Source: Candidatus Eisenbacteria bacterium
Lineage (GTDB): Bacteria > Eisenbacteria > RBG-16-71-46 > SZUA-252
Direction of reading: 5' to 3'
Assembly (NCBI GenBank): GCA_005893305.1
Contig: VBOZ01000029.1
Span: 112,461 to 148,617, forward strand
DNA length: 36,157 nucleotides
Position 1 is the stretch's first letter. Each line of letters starts with the position of its first letter. Made by a program: the position numbers and the translations under genes. The notes beneath the pieces were generated by a model. That model worked only from the letters and a program-made list of their open reading frames with translations, was not told the DNA's origin and ran no database searches. Below are positions 1,222 to 7,461 of this stretch, piece by piece.

Positions 1222-3468
1222 GTGACTTCGGTGATTCTGGACCGCCTCCGGTCCGCACTCGCCAATCGCTACGAGCTGAAGCGCGAGCTCGCGCGCGGAG
1301 GAATGGGGCAGGTCTTCGAAGCTCGGGATCTGAAGCACGGCCGCTCCGTCGCCATCAAAGTGCTCGATCCGGAGCTGGCCGCATCGATCGGGCCGGCACG
1401 GTTTCGGGCAGAGATCGAAACCGCCGCGCGCCTCTCGCATCCGCACATCGTTCCGCTGTTCGATTCGGGCGAAGCTGATGGCCTCTTCTACTTCGTCATG
1501 CCGCTCATCGCCGGCGAGTCGCTCCGCCAGCGCCTGAGCCGCGAGCGCCAGCTTCCCGTGGAGGACGCCCTCCGCATCGCGCGCGAGGCGGCCGACGCCC
1601 TGGAGTACGCGCATGGGCAGGGGCTGGTTCACCGGGACGTGAAGCCGGAGAACATCCTGCTCGCGGGAGGGCATGCCCTCGTCCTCGACTTCGGCATCGC
1701 GCGGTCCAGGGATGGCGGTGAAGGGGGCTCGACCCGGACGGTCACGCCGATCGGAACCCCAGCGTACATGAGCCCCGAACAGATCGCAGGCGCGGACCTC
1801 GACGGGAGGTGCGATCAGTACGCCCTCGCGTGCGTGGTCTACGAGATGCTGGCGGGGCAACCGCCGTTCACGGGCCCGACCCCCGACATCGTTCTCTCGC
1901 AGCATCGGTCGGCGGCGCCACGCTCCGTCGACACCATGCGGCCCGCGGCGCCGACGCCTGTCGGGGCAGCTCTGTCGCGCGCGCTGGCCAAGGCCCCCGC
2001 CGACCGGTACCGAACCCTTTCGGATTTCGCGGCTGCGCTGACGACGGTGCCCACTCCGACCGGCCTGGGCCGAGGCTCAGCCAGGCTGGGCGGTGCCGGC
2101 CGCGTCATGCTCGCGGTTCTCCCGTTGGAAAATCTGAGTGCCGATCCGGAGCAAGAATACTTCGTCGACGGAATGACGGACGAGCTGATCTCGCACTTGA
2201 GCCGTCTCCAACCGAAGCGGCTCGGCGTCATCGCTCGCACCTCCGCCCTCCGCTACAAGAAGACGGGGAAGAGCATCGAGGAGATCGGCCGCGAGCTGGG
2301 GGTGGAGTTCGTCTTGGAGGGAAGCGTACGCCGCGCCGGAGATCGAATCCGAATCACGACGCAGCTGATCCAGGTATCGGACCAGAGCAATCTCTGGGCC
2401 CAGACCCACGATCGTCGCTTGGCGGACATCTTCGAGCTGCAGGACGAAGTCGCAACGACGATCGCCAAGGCTCTAGAGATGGAGCTGGTCCCTTCGAGAG
2501 AGGCCTCCGACTCAAGCGCGGAAGTTACGAAGAGCGCCGCGTACGAGGCGTATTTGAAGGGGCGTTTCCACTGGAACAAGAGGACGCCTGAAGGCATCCG
2601 GTTAGGGATCGAATGGTTCGAGAGAGCGGTCCAGGCGGATCCTCAATTCGCGCGCGCCTACTCCGGCCTCTCCGATGTTTACAACATCGCGATCACCTAC
2701 ATGCTTTTGCCGGCCGAGGAAGCCCTACCCAAGTCGGAGCGCGCGGCGAGGCGCGCGCTGGAGCTTGATCCCGACCTCGTCGACGCCCACGCATCGTTGG
2801 GCAGTGTCTTGACCCACAAAGGAGAGCCGGAGGAGGCGAGGCATGTCTTCCGCAGGGCGCTCGAGCTGGATCCGAACTACGTTCCAGCCCTCTATTGGGG
2901 CGCAATGAATTTCGTCACGCTGGGAGACTTCGAGGGAGCGACCGGCACCGTCGCGCGGGCCGACGCGCTCGACCCGCTCTCCGTCACGGTGAAAATCGTC
3001 CAGGGCAATATCCACTTTTACGCGCGACGGTACGATCAGGCGCTGTCGTACTTCCGGCACATCGTGGAGCTGGAGCCGAAGCTCTATTGGCCTCACCAAC
3101 GGGTGGCGATCTGTATGGCCGCGCAGGGGCGGCTCGAGGAGGCCCTGGCGGAGCTGGATCGCCATCCTGCCGATCTCACCGGCAGCCTCGACCTGATCTC
3201 GGCCCGCGCGTACATGCTGGGTAGGCTCGGACGCCTCGACGAGGCGCGCGCCGCGCTCGAGCAGCTCGAGGTGCGGTCGAAGTCCGAGTACGTCTCCTGG
3301 GAGCGATTTGCGTACGCGTACCTGGGACTCGATGACCGGACGTCGCTGCTGAAGGTCCTCGAGCGGGTCAAGGTACCGGGCGTGCTCGGCCGACTCTCGT
3401 TGCGCCACGAGTCCGCGTTCGACCCAGTCCGCGACGACCCCCGATTCGAAAAGCTGCTCCGCGTCTGA
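1222..3468 (+). CDS. Ser/Thr protein kinase with TolB-like and TPR domains
   Basis: A 748-residue protein starting at GTG 1222 with AGGAG upstream. Residues 17-280 form a Hanks-type kinase: glycine loop RGGMGQVF, ATP lysine K46 (AIKV), catalytic HRDVKPEN with D139, DFG at 156-158, and TPAYMSPEQ in the activation segment. All catalytic residues are present. Residues from about 294 to 415 (AVLPLENLSADPEQEYFVDGM) resemble the TolB-N/FlgO-like domain found after kinase or adenylate-cyclase domains in soil bacteria. The C-terminal half is tetratricopeptide repeats (for example AYSGLSDVYNIA, ALELDPNYVPALYWG), probably for protein binding. No transmembrane segment is apparent, unlike PknB-type kinases, so it is probably cytoplasmic. 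Substrates are unknown. Confidence 0.93.
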   Translation: MTSVILDRLRSALANRYELKRELARGGMGQVFEARDLKHGRSVAIKVLDPELAASIGPARFRAEIETAARLSHPHIVPLFDSGEADGLFYFVMPLIAGESLRQRLSRERQLPVEDALRIAREAADALEYAHGQGLVHRDVKPENILLAGGHALVLDFGIARSRDGGEGGSTRTVTPIGTPAYMSPEQIAGADLDGRCDQYALACVVYEMLAGQPPFTGPTPDIVLSQHRSAAPRSVDTMRPAAPTPVGAALSRALAKAPADRYRTLSDFAAALTTVPTPTGLGRGSARLGGAGRVMLAVLPLENLSADPEQEYFVDGMTDELISHLSRLQPKRLGVIARTSALRYKKTGKSIEEIGRELGVEFVLEGSVRRAGDRIRITTQLIQVSDQSNLWAQTHDRRLADIFELQDEVATTIAKALEMELVPSREASDSSAEVTKSAAYEAYLKGRFHWNKRTPEGIRLGIEWFERAVQADPQFARAYSGLSDVYNIAITYMLLPAEEALPKSERAARRALELDPDLVDAHASLGSVLTHKGEPEEARHVFRRALELDPNYVPALYWGAMNFVTLGDFEGATGTVARADALDPLSVTVKIVQGNIHFYARRYDQALSYFRHIVELEPKLYWPHQRVAICMAAQGRLEEALAELDRHPADLTGSLDLISARAYMLGRLGRLDEARAALEQLEVRSKSEYVSWERFAYAYLGLDDRTSLLKVLERVKVPGVLGRLSLRHESAFDPVRDDPRFEKLLRV

Positions 3469-3709
3469 AGAGGCACGCGGCGCCCAGACACGCCGTTCGC
3501 GATCCGCAACGCCGCTGTAACTCGCACGCGACATGGGTCCATCCCCCCGTGGTACCACCCCGTTCAGCCTGACCCTCCCGGGACACCTCTGCAAAGGTGA
3601 TCTCCGACCCCGGCTCCGATGCAATTGCTTGAAATTCCTGCGCCTGCGGCCCCGCGGCCTTGATATGTCGATATTTGGCACGCCCTCTGATGCTCATTCG
3701 GTGTTCCTC

Positions 3710-4483
3710 ATGAACAGAATGGCTCGAGCGCTACTGATACGCGTTCTTCGCATCGTCCTCGTGGGGCTCGCGGTCGCCGCGTGCCCACGCGACGCGCGCG
3801 CGATGGGCGGCGGCGTGGGCATCGACTACTCGGGCGGACCAGGGGATCAGAGGACACAGGACGCGCTGGGCTATCTCACGACCAAGCTCGGCGGCGACGG
3901 CGACCTGACCCTAATCGGGGCGCGCTACGACAACACCGAGATCGGGCCGGGCACCCTAGGCGCCGTGGGCGTCGGGATACCCGTTCCGGGTCTGACACTC
4001 ATTCGCGTCTCGGGCGCGCGCACCATCGGGGACAAGAACTACCGGGCATTCCGGCTCCAGGCCGGGCCGGAGCTCAACGTGGGAGGCGGTCGAACCCTGG
4101 GAATCTTCTACCTCCACGTCGAGGACAACCTGGCGTCGCTCTCGAACGGCGTCGTGACGGAGCTCGGCGTCCCGATCTCCCCCGTGCTTGCGGGCGGGCT
4201 CGGCGCGGCGGTCGCTTCGAAGGAAGGAGGGCGGACCAGCGCCCAGGGCACCGCGAGCATGACCTGGGGCCCGGCGGGTCGGGTCCAGCTCTTGGGAGAG
4301 ATGAGCGTGGGCCAGAACGTCGTTGGGTTTTCCCAGAGCGGGTCCTCGTCCCAGGGAGGGGTGCTGGGGCGGCTCCCGATCATGGGCCACGGTTCCTCCT
4401 CGAAAAAGGAGGCCGGCGCGGTCAAGGCGGAGTACGGCACGCAAGCGACCGGGCTCGTCGGGATCCGGTTCCTGTTCCCGTAG
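3710..4483 (+). CDS. probable outer-membrane beta-barrel protein
   Basis: A 257-residue protein from ATG 3710. The frame is open upstream to 3533, but the segment MNRMARALLIRVLRIVLVGL followed by AVAACPRDARA is a convincing signal peptide and fixes the start here. The mature part is rich in Gly and alternating polar/hydrophobic strands (LTLIGARYD, TLIRVSGAR, RAFRLQAGPEL, TLGIFYLHVED, VQLLGEMSVG) and ends in VGIRFLFP. This pattern suits a small outer-membrane barrel, and the C-terminal aromatic-rich strand fits BAM recognition. I recognise no named family. It is followed 55 bases later by another exported protein in the same direction, so the pair may be co-transcribed. Confidence 0.7.
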   Translation: MNRMARALLIRVLRIVLVGLAVAACPRDARAMGGGVGIDYSGGPGDQRTQDALGYLTTKLGGDGDLTLIGARYDNTEIGPGTLGAVGVGIPVPGLTLIRVSGARTIGDKNYRAFRLQAGPELNVGGGRTLGIFYLHVEDNLASLSNGVVTELGVPISPVLAGGLGAAVASKEGGRTSAQGTASMTWGPAGRVQLLGEMSVGQNVVGFSQSGSSSQGGVLGRLPIMGHGSSSKKEAGAVKAEYGTQATGLVGIRFLFP

Positions 4484-4538: not shown

Positions 4539-5288
4539 ATGAAACGAATATGGATTCTCGTGTCGCTCGTGGCGGTGATGGTTTGGACGGTGGGTACGTC
4601 GCTCGCTCAGTCCGATACGGCGCCCGGGCAGGCCCCGGCAACGCCCCAGGCCCAGACCCCGGCGTCGCCGGAACCGCAAGCGGCGCCGCAGAGCACCACT
4701 CCCCCGACGCCCGATGTCGGACTGAAGGCAGAGGCGGGCGCGAGCGCGGGAGCGACGGTGATCATGGAGAAGGCCAAGAAGGCGCCGCCCCAGGAGGCGG
4801 AGGCCACCGAGAAGAGGCTTCGCGAGACGGTCAAAAAGGTCGAAGAGGAAGGCACATCGAAGGGCGACCAGACCGTTGCCTCGCGATTGGGAGCGGAATT
4901 CGGCATGACCCCGGACGCGCTGATCGCGGAGAAGAGCCAGTACCAGACTGGCTGGGGTGAGCTCATGATCGCGCACACCATCCTCGCGAGCGCGAAGGGT
5001 GGGGTCACGCTCGACCAGCTTTTCGACATGCGTCGGAACGGACTCGGCTGGGGCCAGATCGGACACGGCCTCGATCTCAGGCTCGGTGGAATCGTGAGCG
5101 CCGTGAAGGCTGAGAGTCGCGTCGCGCTGGGCGTGGCCAAGGCGGATGGACGGCCTGCGAAGATTCAAAGCGCCGCGGTTCACGCAAACGCGGGCACGAA
5201 GGCGGGAGTCGGCGCGGGGCACAAAGGCGCCGGAGTCTCGACGGACGTTGGTGTCGGTGCCGCGGTGAAGGGGCAGACGGGGAAATAA
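4539..5288 (+). CDS. secreted Pro/Ala-rich protein with helical GWG-motif domain
   Basis: A 249-residue protein; the start at ATG 4539 is set by AAAGGAG 7 bases upstream. MKRIWILVSLVAVMVWTVGT with a likely cut after SLAQ is a signal peptide. Residues about 25-60 are a Pro/Ala/Gln-rich linker. Residues about 75-190 look helical: a charged KRLRETVKKVEEEG helix, then two similar units, TGWGELMIAHTILA and LGWGQIGHGLDLRL, each with a GWG turn before a helix. The tail is Gly/Ala/Val/Lys rich. No function can be assigned. Its neighbour is the putative barrel protein, so a periplasmic or envelope role is possible. Confidence 0.7.
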   Translation: MKRIWILVSLVAVMVWTVGTSLAQSDTAPGQAPATPQAQTPASPEPQAAPQSTTPPTPDVGLKAEAGASAGATVIMEKAKKAPPQEAEATEKRLRETVKKVEEEGTSKGDQTVASRLGAEFGMTPDALIAEKSQYQTGWGELMIAHTILASAKGGVTLDQLFDMRRNGLGWGQIGHGLDLRLGGIVSAVKAESRVALGVAKADGRPAKIQSAAVHANAGTKAGVGAGHKGAGVSTDVGVGAAVKGQTGK

Positions 5289-5302
5289 CCGGACGATTCA
5301 GC

Positions 5303-5340
5303 GAGCGAGGGCCATCGGGCTTCGGCCCGGTGGCCCGCTC
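5303..5340 (+). terminator. GC-rich hairpin with TTCG loop, probable terminator
   Basis: GGGCCA-T-CGGGC, loop TTCG, GCCCG-G-TGGCCC, extended by outer GAGC/GCTC with a two-base bulge. It lies 15 bases after the stop of the secreted-protein gene. No T tract follows, so it is a hairpin terminator or 3'-end stabiliser rather than a textbook intrinsic terminator. Confidence 0.55.
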
Positions 5341-5353
5341 GTCCTCGGTCGTG

Positions 5354-5368
5354 TAGGACGAACTCCTA
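5354..5368. promoter_or_regulatory. palindromic site TAGGACGAACTCCTA (copy 1)
   Basis: A perfect inverted repeat, TAGGA-N5-TCCTA, 106 bases upstream of the response-regulator start. The last two bases overlap a good -10-like hexamer, TATAAA (5367-5372). The form resembles RcsB/NarL-type sites. A near-identical copy lies just after the same gene (6150-6164), which supports binding by this regulator. Confidence 0.6.
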
Positions 5369-5432
5369 TAAACGGTTATGGGCATCAATCGTGCTTGCTC
5401 CGGCACCCCGATCTAGATAAGCTTATAGCTGA

Positions 5433-5452
5433 CCCCCAGCGTCGTGTGGGGG
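5433..5452 (+). promoter_or_regulatory. leader hairpin CCCCCA / TGGGGG before the response regulator
   Basis: A 6-bp stem with an 8-base loop ends 9 bases before the GGAGGT ribosome-binding site (5462-5467) of the response-regulator gene. It may influence mRNA stability or translation; this is inferred from position only. Confidence 0.35.
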
Positions 5453-5473
5453 CGGTTCCATGGAGGTTTAGCT

Positions 5474-6106
5474 ATGATTCGAGCGCTCGTCGCGGACGAC
5501 CACGCGGTCGTACGCCGAGGGCTCCGGGAGCTCCTGGCCGAATCACGCGAAGTGGCTGTCACCGGTGAGGCCGGGAACGCCCGCGAAACCCTCGAGCAAG
5601 TCCGCACAGGGAAGTGGGACGTGCTCGTTCTCGACATCAATCTGCCGGACGCGAGCGGGCTGGATGTGCTCCGCGAGGTCAAGCAGATTTCCCCCCAGCT
5701 GCCCGTGCTGATCCTCACGATCTACGCCGAGGACCAATTCGCTGTGCGGGCGCTTCGATCGGGGGCTGCCGGGTACGTCACGAAGCAAAGCGCCCCCGAG
5801 GAGCTGGTGGACGCCATCCGGAAGGTCGTGCGCGGCGGCCGGTATATCAGTCCCGCGCTGGCCGAGAGGCTCGCGGTTCTTGCCGATCCCCAAGCGGAGC
5901 GGCAGCCGCACGAATCGCTCTCGGAGCGGGAGTTTCAAGTGTTCCGCACCCTAGCATCGGGCAAGACCGTCTCGCAAGTCGCCGATTTGCTCCATCTCAG
6001 CGTCAAGACCATAAGCACCTATCGGGCGCGCGTGCTCGAGAAGATGGGCTTGGAAACGAACGCGGAGCTAACGGTCTACGCGGTGCGAAACGGCATCGTC
6101 GAGTAG
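5474..6106 (+). CDS. NarL/FixJ-type response regulator
   Basis: A 210-residue two-component transcription factor. The start at ATG 5474 has GGAGGT 6 bases upstream. The receiver domain (1-120) has the acidic pair D8/D9, phospho-acceptor D54 in VLVLDINLPD, and K104 in GYVTKQ. The C-terminal domain (about 145-205) is a LuxR-type helix-turn-helix: SLSEREFQVFRTLASGKTVS, then VADLLHLSVKTISTYRARVLEKMGL. No histidine kinase gene is adjacent, so it is an orphan regulator here. The domain layout is that of the RcsB/NarL/UhpA group. It is flanked by two copies of one palindrome, suggesting autoregulation and control of the downstream region. Confidence 0.95.
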   Translation: MIRALVADDHAVVRRGLRELLAESREVAVTGEAGNARETLEQVRTGKWDVLVLDINLPDASGLDVLREVKQISPQLPVLILTIYAEDQFAVRALRSGAAGYVTKQSAPEELVDAIRKVVRGGRYISPALAERLAVLADPQAERQPHESLSEREFQVFRTLASGKTVSQVADLLHLSVKTISTYRARVLEKMGLETNAELTVYAVRNGIVE

Positions 6107-6149
6107 CGTGCTCTAAAGTCTGGAATTGCACCCCCGCTGTCCGTACGTG

Positions 6150-6164
6150 TAGGACTAACTCCTA
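6150..6164. promoter_or_regulatory. palindromic site TAGGACTAACTCCTA (copy 2)
   Basis: A perfect TAGGA-N5-TCCTA inverted repeat 44 bases after the response-regulator stop. With flanks, both copies read CGTGTAGGAC(G/T)AACTCCTA, so 17 of 18 bases agree, inside otherwise unrelated sequence. No other copy was noticed in the window. Confidence 0.6.
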
Positions 6165-6320
6165 CTTTCCCCTTCCGAAAATCCCACAAAACAATGAGAG
6201 ACCCGCCGATGGTGGCTTCGCGCGGGTGGCCGTATTCTTATAGGCGTTGATGCGCTCACCATCCCGGGCGCATGGAATGGCGGCCATGGCAGGCGTTCCC
6301 CCTGGCGAATGGTCGCGCAA

Positions 6321-6426
6321 GAGGCCTCTCGGGCTGGGATTTCCGACGCTTCACTGCATCGTGCGTCGACAGATACCCCCACGTACCGTTGAAGTTTGGG
6401 GGCGTCGGAATCCCCCCGGAGGCCTC
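6321..6426. ncRNA. long imperfect hairpin, possible structured RNA or terminator
   Basis: The left arm (6321-6349) and right arm (6402-6426) can form about 25 base pairs, in blocks GAGGCCTC, CGGG, GGGAT and TCCGACGC separated by bulges of one or two bases on the left. The 52-base loop contains a nested CCCCA/TGGGG pairing (6377-6381 with 6397-6401). The right arm is followed by AAGTTGTTT, a weak U-rich tail on the plus strand. It could be the 3' part of a small RNA started near palindrome copy 2, a bidirectional terminator, or a leader of the epimerase gene. I recognise no known RNA family. Confidence 0.45.
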
Positions 6427-6484
6427 AAGTTGTTTCCCCACCCGCCGCGCTCAGGTGCCGACCGTATAGGCGCTCCATCGCCTG

Positions 6485-6501: not shown

Positions 6502-7461
6502 GTGGAAACGAAATCGCCCCGGGCTGATTCAGCGTACAAATCATCGGGATCGACGGTCCTCGTGACCGGCGCTTCGGGCTTCGTCGGAAGCCGCGTGGCG
6601 CTGCGGCTCGCCGGCGTCGGCTCTCGTGTTCGGGCGCTTGTGCGGCGTCCGGGAGCGGCGCCGGATCTCGGCAGCGCCGGCATCGAGGAGATCGAAGGTG
6701 ATTTCGTCGATCGCGATGTGGCCCACCGCGCGGCGGTGGGCGCGGATCTCGTGGTGCATTGCGCCGCCACCTCGGGACCCGACTTCGACCCGGTCCGCCG
6801 CGTGAATGCCGAGGGCACGTACTCCGTGGTGGATGCGGCCCTCACCGCCGGATCCCGCCGTTACGTTCATATCTCGACCTGCTCGGTCTACCGCACGGGC
6901 GGTCTCACGCTGGTCGACGAGGACGCGCCACTCAAGGAGGCGGGCGATCCCTACGGCGTCACGAAGGCGGAGGCCGACCGGATCGTCCTCGACGCGGCGG
7001 CCGGCGGACTCCAGGCCGTGATCCTTCGCCCAGGCGCGATCCTGGGCGTTCACCCGACGTCCACCTGGGCGATCAAGATGCCCGCGCGCGTCCGCGATCG
7101 CCAGATCAAGCTCACGATCGACGGCGGGAACACGGTGCCCTATGTCCACGTCGAGGACCTGGTCGACGCGGTTCTTCTCGCGCTCGGCAACGAGCGGGCG
7201 GCTGGTCGCGTCTACAACGTCGTCGACGGCCACATGACGTGGAAGGAATACACGGACGAGATCCGCGGCTGGTTCGGCACGCCGCCCCTCGAGGTCGTTC
7301 CCAAGGACCAGGTTCCCGACGGGGGATACTGGACGGGGAAGTTCGACGCGACGCGGATCCGCGCCGAGCTCAACTACGCGCCCCGCCACACCTACGCGGA
7401 GGGAATGGCCGAGGCGGCCCGACACTGGAGGCAGGAGCTTGAAACGGCCCGATCCGTCTGA
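6502..7461 (+). CDS. NAD(P)-dependent epimerase/dehydratase (extended SDR)
   Basis: A 319-residue protein from GTG 6502. The Rossmann motif TGASGFVG is at 22-29 and the acidic turn GDFVD follows at about 66-70. The catalytic set is a Ser in STCSVY (125-130) and Y151/K155 in PYGVTKAEAD. LRPGAILG and VPYVHVEDLVDAVLLAL are typical of sugar-nucleotide or sterol-type extended SDRs. Substrate is not evident; family relatives act on nucleotide sugars, 3-beta-hydroxysteroids or dihydroflavonols. The last 23 bases overlap the start of the DinB-type gene, so the two are probably translated together. Confidence 0.9.
   Translation: METKSPRADSAYKSSGSTVLVTGASGFVGSRVALRLAGVGSRVRALVRRPGAAPDLGSAGIEEIEGDFVDRDVAHRAAVGADLVVHCAATSGPDFDPVRRVNAEGTYSVVDAALTAGSRRYVHISTCSVYRTGGLTLVDEDAPLKEAGDPYGVTKAEADRIVLDAAAGGLQAVILRPGAILGVHPTSTWAIKMPARVRDRQIKLTIDGGNTVPYVHVEDLVDAVLLALGNERAAGRVYNVVDGHMTWKEYTDEIRGWFGTPPLEVVPKDQVPDGGYWTGKFDATRIRAELNYAPRHTYAEGMAEAARHWRQELETARSV

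Follow-up and report, generated by a model that had tools for sequence, protein, structure and literature searches.

The locus studied here raises the question of why a response regulator gene of a Candidatus Eisenbacteria genome is flanked on both sides by nearly the same palindrome, and what is controlled from the two copies. The window, i.e., the whole analyzed stretch of DNA of 36,157 nucleotides (G000:C29:112461-148617), originates from a 2.75-Mb genome (G000, the own genome in the following). Coordinates of the features discussed below are compiled in Table 1.

The response regulator and its two flanking palindromes

The response regulator (RR) possesses the receiver and GerE/LuxR-type helix-turn-helix architecture of the NarL/FixJ family (Pfam Response_reg, 1.8e-28; GerE, 8.3e-16), and its solved relatives include DevR, VraR, NarL, EvgA and RcsB. 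The best NCBIfam model was UvrY/SirA/GacA (NF007018), which scored 179.5 bits, under the cut-off of 280. A sequence-only reading of this DNA had seen a resemblance to the RcsB/NarL class; the assignment to the NarL/FixJ family holds, with UvrY/SirA/GacA instead of RcsB as the nearest named relative by profile. The nearest named relative of the own genome is a Candidatus Eisenbacteria MAG, and the RR of this MAG (L038) is 70% identical. Kinase genes were found ahead of the RR gene in G001 (REC-PAS-HisKA_3) and G066 (PAS-HisKA_3); in the window, a frame without Pfam match lies upstream and no kinase gene precedes the RR. Since the closest relatives of the G001 kinase in G000 are at most 36% identical, no kinase partner is named. 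At positions 4539-5288, a predicted secreted, Ala/Gly-rich protein of 249 aa without Pfam match is encoded, occupying the place of the sensor kinase in some other genomes. Furthermore, the window harbors a gene for a serine/threonine protein kinase fused to TPR repeats (1222-3468).

The sequence CGTGTAGGACkAACTCCTA occurs on both sides of the RR gene (5474-6106). Just as the sequence-only reading had it, copy 1 (TAGGACGAACTCCTA) is located at 5354-5368 and copy 2 (TAGGACTAACTCCTA) at 6150-6164. Both copies have the same orientation, are 796 bp apart and bracket one gene. Extended by the CGTG flank, they are identical at 18 of 19 positions, the earlier count being 17 of 18. Copy 1 lies 105 bases ahead of the ATG at 5474 and copy 2 lies 43 bases past the stop codon ending at 6106, distances formerly given as 106 and 44. 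With up to three mismatches, the palindrome was matched three times in the window, the third match being copy 2 on the other strand; this is more than chance (0.42 matches expected). Moreover, the 15-mer TAGGACNAACTCCTA has only two places in the 2.75-Mb genome, namely copies 1 and 2, and no matches in eight other genomes of the source family.

A genome search for the palindrome had been proposed as a way to define a regulon, and it returned background values: TAGGA-N5-TCCTA was found at five places compared to seven for the reversed control. On this result, the strict palindrome was dropped as a regulon marker in favor of the wider site described below. The 19-mer with up to three mismatches was likewise not enriched in the own genome (36 vs. 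51 places in the control, both strands counted), and at nine of its places that were inspected (L127-L132, L140, L143 and L151) no array of the type presented in the next section was seen. One of them, CGTAGGACGGACGCCTACA at G000:C36:22230-22248 (L132), differs by one base from the site preceding a secreted protein in G003, has no array behind it and lies 159 bp from the end of an opposite-strand frame resembling parB by eye.

A phased array of half-sites behind the regulator gene

In the flanks of 80 homologous RRs, the conserved site is wider than the palindrome: instead of the TAGGA-N5-TCCTA dyad assumed before, it reads TGTMGG-N7-CCKACA, and TGTAGGACAAACNCCGACA-like sites are mostly located right behind the RR gene. 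Beside RR orthologues, where the sequence-only reading expected its motif, the exact palindrome is missing; the wider site is nevertheless present. The complete array has the architecture TGTMGG-N7-CCKACA-N17-CCKACA-N17-CCGAYA with a period of 23 bp and is followed, about 20 bp past its end, by a -10-like element; in many loci, an extended -10-like TGNTA lies about 18 bases past the array. The sites in the window are of the TGTAGG-N7-CCTAYW type, and the array headed by copy 2 matches 21 of 24 positions with 16/17 spacing, its first step being 22 bp and not 23. Half-sites 2 and 3 together match 10 of 12 positions, a value attained at 0.17% of window positions and 0.47% of shuffles. This array is the only one reaching a score of 20 in the whole 36-kb window, and copy 1 is followed by none.

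Table 1. Features in and around the response regulator locus (positions refer to the window).
Feature	Position	Strand	Basis or remark
Copy 1, lone dyad TGTAGGACGAACTCCTATA	5352..5370	+	No phased half-sites behind (5/12)
RR gene, 210 aa, receiver and GerE/LuxR helix-turn-helix, GacA/UvrY-like	5474..6106	+	Pfam, NCBIfam
Copy 2, first dyad of array, TGTAGGACTAACTCCTACT	6148..6166	+	Sequence, motif scans, array scan
Second half-site CCCACA	6183..6188	+	16 bases past dyad; array scan
Third half-site CCGATG, in -35 place	6206..6211	+	17 bases past second half-site; array scan
Predicted -10 element TATTCT	6233..6238	+	21 bases past third half-site; position like that of other loci
Predicted folded, probably non-coding transcript	6246..6440	+	Long stem about 6321-6426
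NAD-dependent epimerase/dehydratase-like gene, possible alternative target	6502..7461	+	Pfam Epimerase 1.5e-36

Conservation of the array was evaluated in several scans. The first consensus scan (at least 14 matched positions) identified 16 sites within 350 nt downstream of the RR genes compared to one in the reversed control. Values were near background upstream (1 vs. 1), within the gene (1 vs. 1) and at larger distances (17 vs. 11). With fixed 17/17 spacing, 14 of 85 RR loci, in which L038 and G006 represent one locus counted twice, reached at least 19 of 24 positions within 350 nt downstream, the maximum of the reversed control being 18. Spacings of 16-18 led to 18 of 87 loci (the locus mentioned being counted once) with at least 20 of 24 positions in the same range, each of them on the coding strand, and the highest score of the reversed control was 19, reached once. 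Among 21 paralogous NarL-type RRs of relatives, the highest scores were 18 downstream and 16 upstream. Moreover, a scan of 99 genomes with up to three mismatches and 17/17-type spacing, for which the window and G003 are below threshold, provided two matches (G001 and G006), both directly behind an RR orthologue, and four scattered ones in the control. A pattern with 16/17 spacing, whose last position was loosened after the window had been seen, yielded nine matches in six of 39 genomes compared to two control matches. They comprise copy 2 of the window, which is the single match in the own genome, G003:C67 and seven places in G014, G017, G024 and G025.

As many of the loci scored had already served to derive the consensus by eye, these counts are partly circular. 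G001, G066, L061 and the secreted-protein promoters of G003 and G000 were not used for drawing it, and less circular support is provided by the 99-genome scan, the G066 arrays and half-sites 2 and 3 of the window. G066, which is more distant and belongs only to the same domain, carries two arrays with a score of 23, one ahead of a sigma-70 gene and the other ahead of the gene following it. A phylum scan centered on G066 and covering nine genomes also detected two arrays in G103, neither of which was shown to lie beside an RR. G003:C29 contains one more place, near 45659 (L121:5660), with an array score of 21 of 24.

In a maximum-likelihood tree of 86 RRs, computed quickly without bootstrap and featuring several long branches, all 17 array-bearing rows fell into one set of 29 rows (SH-aLRT 99), compared to none of the 57 rows of the other, Pseudomonadota-only set; the RR of G001, which is split over contigs, was therefore not included. 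The array clade spans Eiseniibacteriota, Myxococcota/Thermodesulfobacteriota, Chloroflexota and Bacteroidota. It includes the RR of the window, whose array, like those of the other array rows, lies no more than 350 nt behind the gene and scores 20 of 24 or higher. No array was found within 350 nt downstream in 12 of the 29 clade rows, three of which (L050, L053 and L070) have one elsewhere in the DNA analyzed, and the G007 orthologue (71% identity) has none. In L053 (about 4769-5767 and 6009), the RR gene is separated from the array by an opposite-strand frame, and the array is kept with an acyl-CoA synthetase gene.

Several Roseateles/Pelomonas-type loci contain left arms TGTMGGA ahead of the RR gene that are spaced by 22 bp and followed, after 36 bp, by TGNTANNNT; such upstream half-sites amount to 19 in 85 loci vs. 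five in the control. This suggests an autoregulation with nearly identical phasing for these RRs. In Pandoraea loci such as L073, L074, L078, L081 and L095, a strongly conserved GACAGTCTCTGGAGCTTAGATGTC-like stretch, unlike the array, lies just ahead of the RR gene, and these relatives seem to use another promoter.

These distributions bear on the origin of the two copies. If the copies belonged to another regulator, or were paired by chance, with the RR nearby by coincidence, this would agree with the lacking enrichment of TAGGA-N5-TCCTA in the genome and with the missing exact palindrome beside orthologues. However, the wider site and the array were found directly behind RR orthologues of several phyla but not behind paralogous RRs, and the array is confined to this RR clade, so that such a coincidence is very improbable. 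The same orientation and the near identity of two copies around a single gene (18/19 bases, 796 bp) might also be expected of direct repeats that arose when the RR gene was inserted or recombined, either att-like or as a target duplication. In relatives, though, the downstream copy is kept in position without the upstream one, and the similarity continues as phased half-sites behind copy 2 only. Because the downstream copy alone is conserved, this origin was rejected as almost certainly wrong.

The best explanation, which as a whole we hold with good confidence, is that the RR binds the dyads, that copy 2 heads an RR-dependent array promoter and that copy 1 is probably autoregulatory. From the observed sequence, phasing and conservation we infer binding, phosphorylation and activation as follows. 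The GacA/UvrY-like RR would bind TGTMGG-N7-CCKACA dyads, copy 2 representing the distal and strongest dyad of three binding positions 23 bp apart (22 bp in the first step of the window). Dimers of the phosphorylated RR would occupy all three positions in register, at intervals of about two turns, and recruit RNA polymerase. The last half-site CCGAYA, about 20 bp before the -10 element, would replace the -35 element, and transcription would be switched on from about 6245. For the own genome, either a structured non-coding RNA or a long structured leader is expected as the probable immediate product. The earlier proposal that something transcribed from copy 2 is controlled by the regulator is strongly supported, since the copy-2 position is conserved and heads a phased promoter array beside related RRs.

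Copy 1, as a single dyad ahead of the RR gene, is probably an autoregulatory site. The autoregulation put forward in the sequence-only reading is plausible, with the qualification that copy 1 comprises one dyad only, has no array and was not seen (by eye) upstream of Eisenbacteria orthologues. Regarding the -10 element that copy 1 had been said to overlap, a TATAAA does overlap it at 5367-5372, but no promoter-like pair was detected between 4300 and 6600 in a sigma-70 scan. Copy 1 could also act as a repressor site, where bound RR covers the TATAAA and exerts negative autoregulation; the overlap and the missing half-sites behind copy 1 are in line with such a role, but no -35 partner was found in the scan, and we regard it as rather unlikely.

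Candidate targets in the own genome and in other phyla

For positions 6247-6440, a fold of -93.4 kcal/mol was predicted (z -3.47, none of 200 shuffles being as good), and the only frame in the stretch 6246-6440 is an unlikely 82-aa TTG frame. Behind the arrays of G000, G003 and G006, no convincing frame was found, and strong folds were also predicted in G003 (z -2.14) and G006 (z -4.50). By eye, the latter two have a two-hairpin layout in common; the folded RNA of the window could not be aligned with them, and no common sequence was evident by eye. As judged from the sequence, a non-coding product behind the window array is likely. No Rfam family was detected in the window at the gathering threshold. 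Furthermore, no GGA-rich RsmY-like RNA was recognized, and no GGA-in-loop pattern was established in the folded stretch; csrA is present in six of ten genomes, including G000, G003 and G006, and not in G001.

Alternatively, the RR-dependent promoter at copy 2 may serve the genes that start with the epimerase at 6502, and the folded stretch may function only as their leader or as an attenuator. The epimerase gene is the first sizeable frame behind the promoter and is encoded on the same strand, and in most other phyla a protein gene lies behind the array. Against this stand the required leader length of about 255 nt, including a hairpin of very high stability, and the situation in G003 and G006, where no convincing gene occurs in the 600-1000 nt behind the array and an unrelated frame follows which we take to be NIPSNAP-like. 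The epimerase gene is regarded as a possible rather than a probable target, and the structured RNA as the preferred one.

In the explanation favored here, regulator and array would stay together across phyla and the gene behind the array would change. A receiver-only protein is encoded behind the array in L042 and L079, as well as in L077 and L111 (sequence by eye), and an ADP-forming acyl-CoA synthetase-like protein in L040 and, according to the start of the sequence, in L043, L047, L051, L056 and L061. Moreover, the gene behind the array codes for a sigma-70 factor in G066 and for a secreted, PPC domain-containing protein in G001. Next after its sigma-70 gene, G066 encodes a lipoprotein-like secreted protein (L162, G066:C42, minus strand, about 1908-3734), whose gene is preceded by an array of its own (23/24); a related protein in G103 (L159) is also preceded by an array.

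The array-driven secreted protein of G001 has full-length homologues in G003 and G000 (57% identity). The G003 homologue, encoded on another contig than the RR, has an array with one mismatch upstream. The G000 homologue (C16:17056-20085, minus strand) is preceded by CGTAGGCCAGATCCCGACA-N17-CCGATA (CGTAGG-N7-CCGACA-N17-CCGATA), with the two promoter-proximal positions in register, a poor first dyad and a best score of 20/24; this promoter, including the 19-mer place at C16:20208-20226, was inspected because of the homology and represents a directed, not a blind, test. In Eisenbacteria, the array before this protein of about 1000 aa therefore adjoins the RR in one genome and is unlinked in two, and the protein, encoded on another contig, is the predicted second target in the own genome.

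Relation to known regulators and meaning of the proposed module

The receiver and GerE architecture of the RR is identical to that of the NarL/FixJ regulators NarL, RcsB, EvgA, BvgA, VraR and DevR. The sites of these regulators differ in sequence and spacing from the array described here, and no named member of the family was found with this array. A search of the open-licence literature, including TGTAGGAC, gave nothing on this site among the matches listed, and the listed TGTAGGAC matches looked unrelated. Excerpts of Desulfovibrio regulator studies deal with other families or offer no motif for the NarL-type regulator in question (PMC3333781, PMC6456213). According to one of these excerpts, LurR and NrfR have several short inverted sites before a target operon beside the regulator (PMC6456213). 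The locus described here resembles them in having several short inverted sites and a target adjoining the regulator; unlike its RR, LurR and NrfR are, in that excerpt, sigma-54-dependent, use 16-bp sites and belong to another family.

GacA acts, according to an excerpt of PMC4950607, via the 18-bp upstream site TGTAAG-N6-CTTACA before rsmY and rsmZ. Besides GacA/UvrY/SirA being the best family profile for the RR, both sites have 6-bp inverted arms starting with TGT and lie well upstream of the promoter, as far as this excerpt describes the GacA site. In the same source, the site before rsmX/Y/Z switches on small RNAs; in the window, a folded, probably non-coding stretch follows copy 2. In contrast to the GacA site of that excerpt, the arms here are TGTMGG/CCKACA with seven bases between them, vs. 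TGTAAG-N6-CTTACA. Unlike in GacA, the site heads a 23-bp-phased array, and the target in other phyla is a protein gene. The RR failed two tests for GacA, the profile cut-off (179.5 vs. 280 bits) and the site.

On balance, we lean towards the view that at least four phyla have retained one module, a GacA-like regulator with a 23-bp-phased three-position array right behind its gene, and that different transcription units (CheY-like receiver, sigma factor, ADP-forming acyl-CoA synthetase, secreted protein or structured RNA) have been exchanged after the array, the module serving as a portable two-component output socket. Most RRs of uncultured phyla have no known targets, and the predicted binding site of this one is readable from the sequence. 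The array architecture is strict enough for genome scans and would allow inference of RR targets from sequence alone; in two genomes, it already connects the regulator with another gene at an unlinked place. The locus would also represent a case in which regulator and operator are fixed over a long evolutionary distance and the regulated gene is swapped.
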